This document shows, one piece after another, positions 15,540 to 58,391 of a stretch of DNA of 64,000 nucleotides. A program made the translations under genes and the position numbers. Under the pieces are notes generated by a model. That model had not been told where the DNA came from. It saw nothing but the letters and a program-made list of their open reading frames with translations, and ran no database searches. Each line of letters starts with the position of its first letter. The first letter of the stretch is position 1. Origin of the DNA: Fodinicola acaciae (GTDB taxonomy: Bacteria > Actinomycetota > Actinomycetes > Mycobacteriales > HKI-0501); the NCBI RefSeq assembly GCF_010993745.1, contig NZ_WOTN01000002.1, positions 1,488,001 to 1,552,000 on the forward strand, in the 5' to 3' direction.

Positions 15540-15595
15540 GTGTTGGTCGGGTCGAGGTGGTCGGGTTTCTGTTTGTTGGGTTTTTTTTTTGGGGG
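15540..15595. repeat. Left fragment of a family C element interrupted by IS110 (copy C1)
   Basis: The stretch GGTGGTCGGGTTTCTG, then TTTGTTGGG and a T10 run followed by G, resembles the outer inverted end of family C elements at 35285-35330 and 57735-57800. The remainder of that copy resumes at about 17046, on the other side of the transposase gene. Similarity here is short and imperfect. Confidence 0.5.
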
Positions 15596-15612
15596 GTGTC
15601 CCTATGAATTTG

Positions 15613-16818
15613 TCAAGCCGCCGTAGCGACTGTGGCTGGTTGGGGGTGCCGGAACTGGGTTTTGTTGCGGAGCATGGCGTAGAGGACGTCGCAGCGTCGG
15701 CGGGCGAGGCAGATGAGGGCGGCGTTGTGTTTCTTGCCTTCGGCGCGTTTGCGGTCGTAGTAGGCGCGGCTGATGGGGTCGTGCAGGGCGGCGAACGCGG
15801 AAAGGAAGAACGCGCGCTTGAGCTTGCGGTTACCGCTTCGAGCGGGGTGTTCGCCCTTGATAGAGGAGCCCGAGGCGCGGGTGACTGGGGCGATGCCGGC
15901 GTAGGCGGCCAGGTGCGCGGAGGAGGCGAACGCCGAGGCGTCACCGATTTCCAGGAGGATGCGGGCGGCGGTCCTGACCGCGATGCCAGGCATCGAGGTC
16001 AGGACCGCGGCAAGAGGGTGTGCATCGAGAATCTCCTCGACCTCGTGTTTGACCTGTTCGCGTTGCGCCAGAACGGTTTTCAGGCTGTCAGCCAGGCGGG
16101 GCAGCACGGTGTCGGCGGCGGTGGTGCCGGGAACAATGACGGTCTGTTCGTCCAGCGCGGCCCAGATCGCGGTGACGAGTTTCTCGCCGATGCGGGGCGC
16201 GTGGGTGGTGGCGATCGCGGTCAGCGTGCGTCGTCCGGCCCTGCGAATGCCGGTGGGGCCGCCGCACCGGGACAGGATTTCCAGGACCGCCGGGTGCGCG
16301 ATCTTCGGTCCGATCGCGCCTTCCAGGGCGGGGTGGATGCCGGTCAGCAGGCCGCGGATGCGGTTGCCGATGCGGGTGGCCTCGCCGGCCAGATCGTCAT
16401 CGAATCCGACCAGGACTTCCAGTTCGGCCAGCGTGTCGTCGCCGACGTCGACCTGTCGCAGCGTGTGCGGCAGGGATCGGGCGGCGTCGGCGATGATGAA
16501 CGCGTCGCGGGCGTCGGTCTTGGCGTGGCCGGGATACAGATCCGCGATACGGCGCATGGCCAGGCCGGGCAGATACGCCACCTGGTGCCCGCAGGCGCGG
16601 GCGACCGCCACCGGCAGGGCGCCGATGGTGGCGGGCTGATCCACCACGACCAGCAACCGGCCATGTCGGGCGAGTTTGTCGAACACCGCCCGCAGCTTGG
16701 GTTCACTGTTGGGCAGCGGCGCATCGTGCAGCCGCTTACCAGCCGGGTCCAGACCAACGGCGTGGTGTTCTCCTTTGCCGACGTCCAAGCCGAGGAACAC
16801 GCCATATTCGCTGTTCAT
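15613..16818 (-). CDS. IS110-family transposase/recombinase
   Basis: 401 residues and apparently intact. The N-terminal RuvC-like DEDD domain starts at GVFLGLDVGKGEHH and continues with VVVDQPATIGALPVAVAR and GHAKTDARDAFIIADAAR. The C-terminal Tnp domain has the helix-hairpin-helix SMPGIAVRTAARILLEIGD, GIAPVTRASGSS and the serine-bearing SGNRKLKRAFFLSAFAAL. ATG 16818 (MNSEYG) is preferred to an upstream in-frame start. It catalyses bridge-RNA-guided insertion in characterised relatives. Full length and intact motifs suggest it may still be active. Confidence 0.93.
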   Translation of the reverse strand: MNSEYGVFLGLDVGKGEHHAVGLDPAGKRLHDAPLPNSEPKLRAVFDKLARHGRLLVVVDQPATIGALPVAVARACGHQVAYLPGLAMRRIADLYPGHAKTDARDAFIIADAARSLPHTLRQVDVGDDTLAELEVLVGFDDDLAGEATRIGNRIRGLLTGIHPALEGAIGPKIAHPAVLEILSRCGGPTGIRRAGRRTLTAIATTHAPRIGEKLVTAIWAALDEQTVIVPGTTAADTVLPRLADSLKTVLAQREQVKHEVEEILDAHPLAAVLTSMPGIAVRTAARILLEIGDASAFASSAHLAAYAGIAPVTRASGSSIKGEHPARSGNRKLKRAFFLSAFAALHDPISRAYYDRKRAEGKKHNAALICLARRRCDVLYAMLRNKTQFRHPQPATVATAA

Positions 16819-17045
16819 CCACCGTGTCTTTCGTCGCGTCGCAGGCGGTCGCCAGTCAGGCATCGACGGCCGGCACCCACGTTACGACGAGACCTACCCG
16901 ACGGCGGCCGTGTCCCTATCAGCGGTCCCTCGATGCCACCAGGCTCGGTGACACCACCCCCCGGATCATGCGAACGACTGGGGACGTTAGTCATGCCGAA
17001 CCTGGCGACCACAACTCCCTTGATCAGGAGCCACGAAAAAGGTAA
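16819..17045 (-). ncRNA. Candidate IS110 bridge-RNA region
   Basis: A non-coding flank of ~226 bp immediately upstream of the transposase, the position of bridge RNA in IS110-group elements. It holds several small inverted repeats and one copy of GTGTCCCTAT, which is also present at the opposite element end, the kind of match expected between a donor-binding loop and an element end. No structure was computed, so this is placement by analogy. Confidence 0.45.
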
Positions 17046-17650
17046 CGGGGGGTCGCCTTCGCGGCGGGCGCTCCTGCGCGGAGGGCGACCTCAAGGGGAG
17101 GGGCGCGCGGGGTTTCGCTGTTGGTCCGGTTGGGTGCCGCGGGTGCGGTTGTGTTTGTGGTGTGGACCAGGAGTGTGGCTGGTCGCCGGAGCTGCGGTGG
17201 CGTCTCGGTGGGTGGCGTGAAGGTCCAGTATGCGGGACGCGACGGCGTGTGGAGCGCTAAATGTCCGGCTTGTGAGGGTCGCGGATGGCATGAATGTCGA
17301 GTTACTTGCGTTGGACGCAAGGAACAAGGCTTTCACGCCACAGTGATCCCCGGACGCTGTGACGGGTGTGACTACTGAGGCTAGTAGTGCTGTTGTGGCT
17401 ACCAGGCTGCACCAAATGTCTATTTCGATGTCTTGTTAAACAAGTGTTACGCAGCCGATCCGCCTCACCCGCATTGCCAGCCACAGTAGCCACATCAGCA
17501 CCACCCGGACGCTGTGACGGCGTCCATGCCGACGGTTGCTTCCCACACGTGACCGAGCAAGCCCAGGAGACCCAGCCCCGCACGAAATCGCAACAAACAG
17601 GAGACGCACCACCTCCCCAACGCAACAACCAGAAATCCCACCCTCCAGAC
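17046..17650 (-). repeat. Family C element, copy C1 (main part), in a 680-bp gene-free gap
   Basis: In minus orientation it contains, in order, an outer inverted end (17590-17650), a TTGTTTAACAAG-like palindrome near 17435, the conserved tract that would read MKALFLASNASNSTFMPSA (from about 17336 down), a hairpin CTTGCGT-TGG-ACGCAAG, and the GC-rich inverted end with CGACCTCAAGGGGAGGGG (about 17086-17103). It closely matches 57735-58391. The left outer end is cut off at 17046 by the IS110 element. I see no convincing gene between the IS and 17726. Confidence 0.8.
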
Positions 17651-57734: not shown

Positions 57735-58391
57735 TTGCGTTGGGGAGAGGGTTGGGTTTCATGATTGTTGCGTTGGGTGCGTGGTTGTGGCTTCTGGTTG
57801 TTGCGTCTGGGGTGGTTTCGCCTGCGCGGCGGGCGCTCCTGCGCGGAGGGCGACCTCAAGGGGAGGGTGCGCGGGGTTTGGCTGTTGGTCCGGTTGGGTG
57901 CGGCGCGTACGGTTGGTTTGTGGGTGGACCAGGAGTGTGGCTGGGGCGCCGGAGTTGCGGTGGCGTCTCGGTGGGTGGCGTGAAGGTCCACTTGTGGGAC
58001 GAGAAGGCATGTGGAGCGCTAAATGTCCGGATTGCGAGGCTCGCTGATGGCATGAATGTCGAGTTACTTGCGTTGGACGCAAGAAACAAGGCTTTCACGC
58101 CGCCGCGACCCCCGAAGGCTGTGACGGGTGTGACCACTGAGGCTGATAATGCTGTTGTGACTGCTCGCCCGCGACAGATGTCCGTTTTGATGTCTTGTTA
58201 AACAAGTATTACGCAGTCAGCGGCTACAGCGCGATCGTTTGGCGTCCATCCGGACGGGTTGCTTCCCATACGTGACCCCTATGCACACCGATTGGCATCC
58301 ACGCGCTCCCTCCCTTGAGGTCGCCCCACTCACCCGCGCAACCACCAAGAGACGCACCACTCACCAACACAACAATCAGCAACCACCCGCG
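57735..58391 (-). repeat. Family C element, copy C4 (most complete), fills most of an 859-bp gene-free gap
   Basis: Outer ends are inverted copies of each other: CGACCTCAAGGGGAGGG at 57851-57867 against CCCTCCCTTGAGGTCG at 58308-58323, with further matches outward (TTGTTGCGTTGGG near 57765; CCAACACAACAATCAG near 58365). Inside, in minus orientation, are TAATACTTGTTTAACAAG, the tract reading MKALFLASNASNSTFMPSA (from 58098 down) and the hairpin CTTGCGT-TGG-ACGCAAG. No transposase is encoded. The remainder of the gap (57536-57734) is the ehuB upstream region, in which I see no gene. Confidence 0.85.

Follow-up and report, generated by a model that had tools for sequence, protein, structure and literature searches.

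An IS110-group element of Fodinicola acaciae with a probable bridge RNA and insertion into C-runs

The non-coding flank upstream of an IS110-group transposase gene in the actinomycete Fodinicola acaciae very probably encodes the bridge RNA of an IS621-like element that inserts into runs of C. We studied the element within a 64-kb stretch of DNA (64,000 nucleotides, hereafter the window, to which all positions refer), where the original prediction had proposed a candidate bridge RNA upstream of the transposase. Comparison with relatives bears this out: the flank has a two-loop structure with covariation, and a decamer shared with the opposite end of the element lies in the donor loop. The anatomy of the element, its ends, the covariation of stems and guides and the C-run targets are established at the level of sequence. 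Bridge RNAs of the IS110 group are already known as a kind of system; what appears from the alignments to be new is a homopolymer target kept over a wide clade, together with a covarying closing helix that makes a three-way junction. Searches of the open-access literature yielded no homopolymer, poly-C or C-tract target for IS110 elements, and the C-run of ISEc20 may stand in the figures or supplements of PMC11187229 or in ISfinder.

The element and its relatives

Read on the minus strand, the element spans from GTTACC (17046-17041) to ATAGGGACA (15605-15597), with a C-run on each side. Its parts are as follows.

15591..17052, minus strand: IS110-group element including both C-runs (three own-genome copies, flank divergence)
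15597-17046, minus strand: unique part of the element
15591..15596, minus strand: right-end C-run, 6 C
15597..15605, minus strand: right end, left-donor sequence ATAGGGACA (sequence, end parsing, decamer search)
15611..15616, minus strand: TTGACA, candidate -35 box of a putative circle-junction promoter (position placed by hand)
15613..16818, minus strand: recombinase (transposase) gene, 401 aa (Pfam DEDD_Tnp_IS110 and Transposase_20; PDB IS621 and ISCro4)
17041..17046, minus strand: left end, right-donor sequence GTTACC (genomic copies and end parsing)
17047..17052, minus strand: left-end C-run of 6 C, belonging to the interrupted target

The F. acaciae genome holds three full copies of the element, the window copy and two others, and one fragment. 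In the three full copies the coding stretch, the left-end sequence, GTTACC and ATAGGGACA are identical, and the flanks diverge beyond the C-runs, which measure 5/7, 5/7 and 6/6 (left/right). The same ends in different flanks fix the boundary of the element where the original prediction had placed it, and the decamer at 15596-15605 thus sits at the opposite end. The left end is long and non-coding, with about 228 bases before the gene; the right end has only 16 bases between the stop codon and the C-run, so the IS1111-group trait of a bridge RNA within a long right end is absent.

The recombinase (start 16818, stop 15613-15615, minus strand) has the domains DEDD_Tnp_IS110 and Transposase_20, with Pfam scores of 162.5 and 77.6 bits, and its C-terminal part matches the PDB entries of IS621 (8wt6) and ISCro4 (9t56). 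Among seven aligned proteins D12, D102 and D105 are invariant and residue 60 is D where the DEDD motif has E; judged from sequence, the motif seems to have D rather than E as its second catalytic acid. Residue 60 is D in 7/7 relatives, and D is found also in more distant actinomycete IS110 proteins. The SGSS of the recombinase aligns with that of IS621, its equivalence to the published S241 being assigned by eye under an assumed two-residue chain offset.

Relatives were drawn from a scan of GTDB genomes, the best 80 of 413 and the three own copies making up 83 loci. At first 24 of these were unparsed, 16 without a right end near the gene and the rest without a parsed left end. Ten of the 16 have a right end 346-1068 bases past the recombinase match, and L051 has one with a single C behind it; L016, L021, L045, L067 and L069 showed none, the sequence searched ending 405, 55 and 718 bases past the match in L016, L021 and L069. 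TTGAC precedes the right end in 65 of the 67 loci in which this end was parsed.

An extra gene lies between the recombinase and the right end in L030, L044, L046, L055, L056, L057, L058, L059, L061 and L084, the right end of such passenger-layout loci being ATAGGGAC followed by a C-run, 346-1068 bases past the recombinase match. Eight passenger translations gave Pfam matches to GNAT acetyltransferase (three), alpha/beta hydrolase, HAD, pyrophosphatase and a TriTu-like immunity protein, and one gave none. The L002 copy seems, by eye, to interrupt an excisionase-like ORF, and in phage TurkishDelight (L231) a relative of the element lies downstream of a gene annotated 'excise'. On viral contigs, 16 of 21 loci match the whole left-end layout pattern, mostly at or beside C's. 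ISEc20, an E. coli relative, has 2367 matching places, fragments included, in 1455 of 5426 E. coli genomes.

A two-loop RNA with a closing helix

The proposed RNA occupies most of the left end, and its elements follow in the order hairpin, target loop, donor loop.

16845..17046, minus strand: bridge RNA region of about 200 nt, closing helix included, with putative transcript ends (alignment A1, structure counts)
17013..17032, minus strand: 5' stem-loop
17007..17012, minus strand: closing helix, 5' strand (alignment columns 55-60; window place by hand)
16938..17006, minus strand: target-binding loop (stem strands 17006-16990 and 16952-16938)
16859..16937, minus strand: donor-binding loop (stem strands 16937-16922 and 16874-16859)
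16845..16850, minus strand: closing helix, 3' strand (alignment columns 246-252; window place by hand)

The case for this RNA depends on comparison, since no Rfam family reaches its threshold in a scan of the 64-kb window and the single sequence has an ordinary free-energy fold (z -1.68; 12 of 200 shuffles fold as well) that pairs part of the decamer with the 5' region. The two-loop consensus was obtained with RNAalifold from A1, an alignment of 59 left ends made on sequence alone. Over the 59 sequences, 98.9% of the cells in 27 counted stem pairs are standard pairs and 14 of the 27 pairs show two-sided changes; the observed values exceed those of all 500 shuffles on each of five measures. When a stem partner is slid by 1-3 columns pairing falls to 49.7% or less, a comparison biased in favour of the tested structure, which was itself derived from A1. 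A 5' hairpin of at least five pairs forms in all 59 sequences and beats all 50 base shuffles in only 24 of them.

A further helix pairs the bases directly before the target loop with bases past the donor loop. In this closing helix 96.3% of cells are paired and four of six pairs show two-sided changes, a count reached by 4 of 500 shuffles, with 0/500 on the other four measures; its covariation score is 0.379, against at most 0.129 when slid. ISEc20 is out of register in these columns, and its strands GTTAGCCAG and CTGGTTAAC are complementary by eye. Together with the adjacent loop stems (columns 133 and 134), the closing helix makes a three-way junction.

Donor guides that follow the element ends

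The decamer ATAGGGACAC (minus strand) has exactly two sites in the window, 15596-15605 and 16910-16919, both on the same strand; the two matches reported in the original prediction are thus exact and unique. Shuffled windows hold on average 0.02 occurrences, and two occurrences arose in 0/100 shuffles. At 15596-15605 the decamer comprises the last nine right-end bases and the first C of the run, and at 16910-16919 it lies inside the donor-binding loop, flanked by the two stem strands, as the proposed donor-loop match had implied. The guides are:

16910..16919, minus strand: left donor guide, identical to the decamer, whose first 8 bases vary with the right end in relatives
16877..16885, minus strand: right donor guide GUAACGUGG, complementary to the left end (alignment, guide comparison)

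The left donor guide equals the right end across eight bases in 50 of 62 loci, which are not independent, several being copies within one genome. Guide and end have changed together at base 4 (L026, L232) and at base 7 (L078-L082, L230, L231); L078-L082 differ also at the outermost base and L230 by one inserted base. Unmatched differences are seen in L028, L029, L036, L039, L042 and L049. For L038 the left guide was entered by hand from the alignment, the pattern having caught a wrong start. A guide of nine or ten bases was rejected in favour of eight, because bases 9 and 10 do not vary with the ends.

The right donor guide complements the first five left-end bases in 59 of the 62 loci by script, and in 61 when L023 and L041 are added, where AUAAC, missed by the pattern, faces GTTAT in the alignment (by eye); only L038 lacks a match to the left end. 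In L078-L082 the guide reads GUAAU and the end ATTAC. As far as aligned sequences can tell, both donor guides covary with the element ends, and the comparison of guide segments with ends that the original prediction had pointed to yields a left guide equal to the right end and a right guide complementary to the left end.

Insertion into C-runs

Two short segments of the target-binding loop correspond to the target:

16980..16983, minus strand: left target guide CCCC (conserved in A1)
16957..16962, minus strand: right target guide GGGGGG (conserved in A1)

These guides match C-runs, and the target itself does not vary across the alignment. CCCC and GGGGGG can themselves form pairs (columns 84-87 with 107-110), so free RNA may hide them, a consequence of a homopolymer target. 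Among recombinases of 62-100% identity the C-run target and its guides stay the same, and a 58% relative with unparsed ends (L272) has a similar target loop.

At first parsing 59 of the 83 loci had C-runs at both ends, a count conditional on an ends pattern that required at least two C per side. Merging identical sites and adding nine passenger-layout loci, eight ISEc20 sites (seven of twelve E. coli loci and one prophage copy), one phage and one plasmid copy gave 77 events. These take in L014, whose run is cut by a contig end, L062, which has N's next to its left end, and L066; the E. coli loci left out are L237 and L245, which repeat the L235 site, and L241, L242 and L243, whose right end was unparsed. 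The left-end run is mostly of 5 C (23/77) and the right-end run mostly of 6 (37/77), and the inferred target run is at least 4 in 71 events, assuming that the element brings 5 C. Low or interrupted runs occur in L066, L051, L038, L262, L265 and L276. The flanks outside the run show no strongly conserved position; G follows the run directly in 38 of 58. The eight copies in another genome (G446) have 1-6 C at the left and 4-7 at the right end.

Empty sites of C6, C6 and C7 correspond to filled sites of 11, 11 and 12 C. At the Amycolatopsis site L031 the stretch that the element interrupts reads ACC CCN CAC in the orthologues, six bases separating the two A's (they are all C in L205, L207, L222 and L227 among 29 loci shown, and C7 in L202); the site is filled 5+6 over a six-base stretch, and the element would thus have brought five C. 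Five donor C are likewise read at Micromonospora L070, where the sole spanning orthologue is C6 and the filled site 5+6, and at E. coli L239, where the closest dgcE allele is C7 (frameshifted) and the filled site 6+6 = 12. The reading frame at E. coli L244 allows 5 or 8 C, so that its 10 filled C give a donor of 5 or 2, in agreement with 5; E. coli L238 gives 4 with a C6 allele, C10 and interrupted alleles existing as well. The relative compared at E. coli L240 lacks a C-run, and no sequence spanning the empty site of the L002 copy was found in 60 relatives. Kutzneria L024 was discarded as a gauge, as its three orthologues have C3-C4 followed by GT or AT and the donor C number is unreadable.

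Outside the element the window has no run of at least 7 C or G in 62,539 bases and seven of at least 6. CCCCCC occurs 10 times in the whole window, both strands, against 56 in shuffles, so that such runs are scarce; three of the 10 belong to the element or its ends.

Five genomes (L006, L007, L009, L010, L012) share the flanking sequence and differ in their C-runs (8-11 left, 6-8 right), which shows that the runs change length once the element is in place, or that they are used again. In L047 and L050 the true left end is preceded by GTTA(C)CCCC, and the right end of L051 carries ACACGTTACG; these arrangements look in sequence as if a former junction had been re-used.

Crossover register and alternative explanations

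Where in the run would the strands be exchanged? The register may be like that of IS621, or the core may lie inside the run. The IS621 register, to which we give a minor share of probability, keeps the same system with a left donor guide AUAGGGAC and a core made of C and the next base (A or C) before the C-run; that the whole donor C-run would then lie to the right of the cut is, in the same measure, doubtful. Guide base 9 does not follow end base 9, A or C standing on either side, and so resembles a linker, much as IS621 has a left donor guide of 8 bases and then the linker A131-U132 (PMC11208158). With five donor C, however, this register predicts at least 5 C before GTTACC, and 28 of the 77 events have fewer. 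The run lengths are better explained by a core within the C-run, unless the donor run varies between circles. Reading the register from the smallest run lengths was given up: most events have at least 3 and 4 C, but L262, L265 and L276 only 1-2 at the left.

The window copy adjoins a repeat that offers another candidate for the target:

17053..17092, no strand assigned: hairpin of a high-copy host repeat, its C-tract being the target

This repeat has at least 40 matches in the own genome, and the window copy interrupts its C-tract; the 34 other repeat copies that were read have C-runs of 3-6 adjoining the hairpin. A looser pattern, with 276 weak matches, was replaced by the exact one. The hairpin with its C-tract is seen also at window positions 57831-57852. 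IS110 elements are known to enter REP sequences (PMC1525189), and the host hairpin repeat could by analogy be the target here and the C-run incidental. This we consider highly improbable: the flanks of the other two own copies have C-runs and no hairpin, and the guides match the C-tract only. The repeat family suspected as the recognised target in the original prediction must accordingly give way to the C-tract beside it, which, on the sequences compared, is the target common to the copies.

It is equally improbable that the decamer is a subterminal recombinase-binding site and the leader a structured 5' UTR controlling the transposase only. The leader does lie directly 5' of the gene, and 27 bases separate its closing helix (3' strand) from the start codon at 16818. 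Against this reading, a second guide is complementary to the opposite end and changes with it, the target guides correspond to the target, and hairpin, target loop and donor loop follow in the order described for IS621 (PMC11208158).

Proposed mechanism

We return to the bridge-RNA reading. By homology with IS621, the RNA would be expressed from the left end. Circularisation would create a promoter at the circle junction, with TTGAC of the right end as a -35-like box, a role that its position suggests. As the left donor guide equals the right-end sequence and the right donor guide complements the left end, the RNA would recognise the circle junction, where the ends are joined after excision. 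In the target loop CCCC has the sequence of the target top strand and GGGGGG its complement, and between them they would pair with both strands of a C-run. Recombinase dimers would be loaded by the RNA onto donor and target, a ribonucleoprotein assembly modelled on IS621. Strand exchange would by the same homology fall within the run, so that the C-run of the circle is joined to the host C-run and the C's of donor and target are divided between the two new junctions.

We find somewhat more for than against the broader idea of a lineage fixed on a homopolymer, in which CCCC/GGGGGG has stayed constant from actinomycetes to E. coli, any C-run can serve as a target, the crossover slides in the run, run lengths change with each jump, the RNA has a closing-helix three-way junction and some members carry cargo. 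This would explain scattered insertion sites with altered run lengths, including those of the frequent E. coli ISEc20. Bridge recombinases are programmable, and the C-run lineage offers a natural setting in which to test how register and core are fixed with homopolymer guides, donor and target, whether loading suffers when the target guides are self-complementary, and what the closing helix does for the RNA.

Comparison with known systems

The IS110 elements of the seekRNA study (PMC11187229) resemble the window element in an upstream non-coding RNA with short matches to both target strands; the processed RNA is shorter there, and the accessible text of that study, in which each IS110-type element chooses its own site, does not mention a C-run target.

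With IS621 the element shares an IS110-group DEDD recombinase, an RNA in the left end, a 5' stem-loop, the succession of target and donor loop and a -35-like box in the right end. The left guides have the sequence of the top strand and the right guides its complement, which is the guide polarity of IS621 (PMC11208160, PMC11208158). The window element has a C-run target and probably a C-run core, whereas IS621 has a CT core in mixed sequence, and its closing helix, making a three-way junction of adjacent loop stems, has no counterpart in the accessible text of PMC11208158, which sets the target loop at 34-98 and the donor loop at 110-177. The target loop is conserved rather than variable, that of IS621 orthologues being described as poorly conserved (PMC11208160), and the second catalytic acid appears to be D, not E.

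ISEc20, the E. coli IS110 element annotated in LC567836, has a recombinase that is 62% identical, the same CCCC/GGGGGG target loop, donor guides alike in outline and insertion into C-runs, and differs in its left donor ATAGGGGCA, its left end GTTACT and the sequence of its closing helix, the window element being that of an actinomycete.
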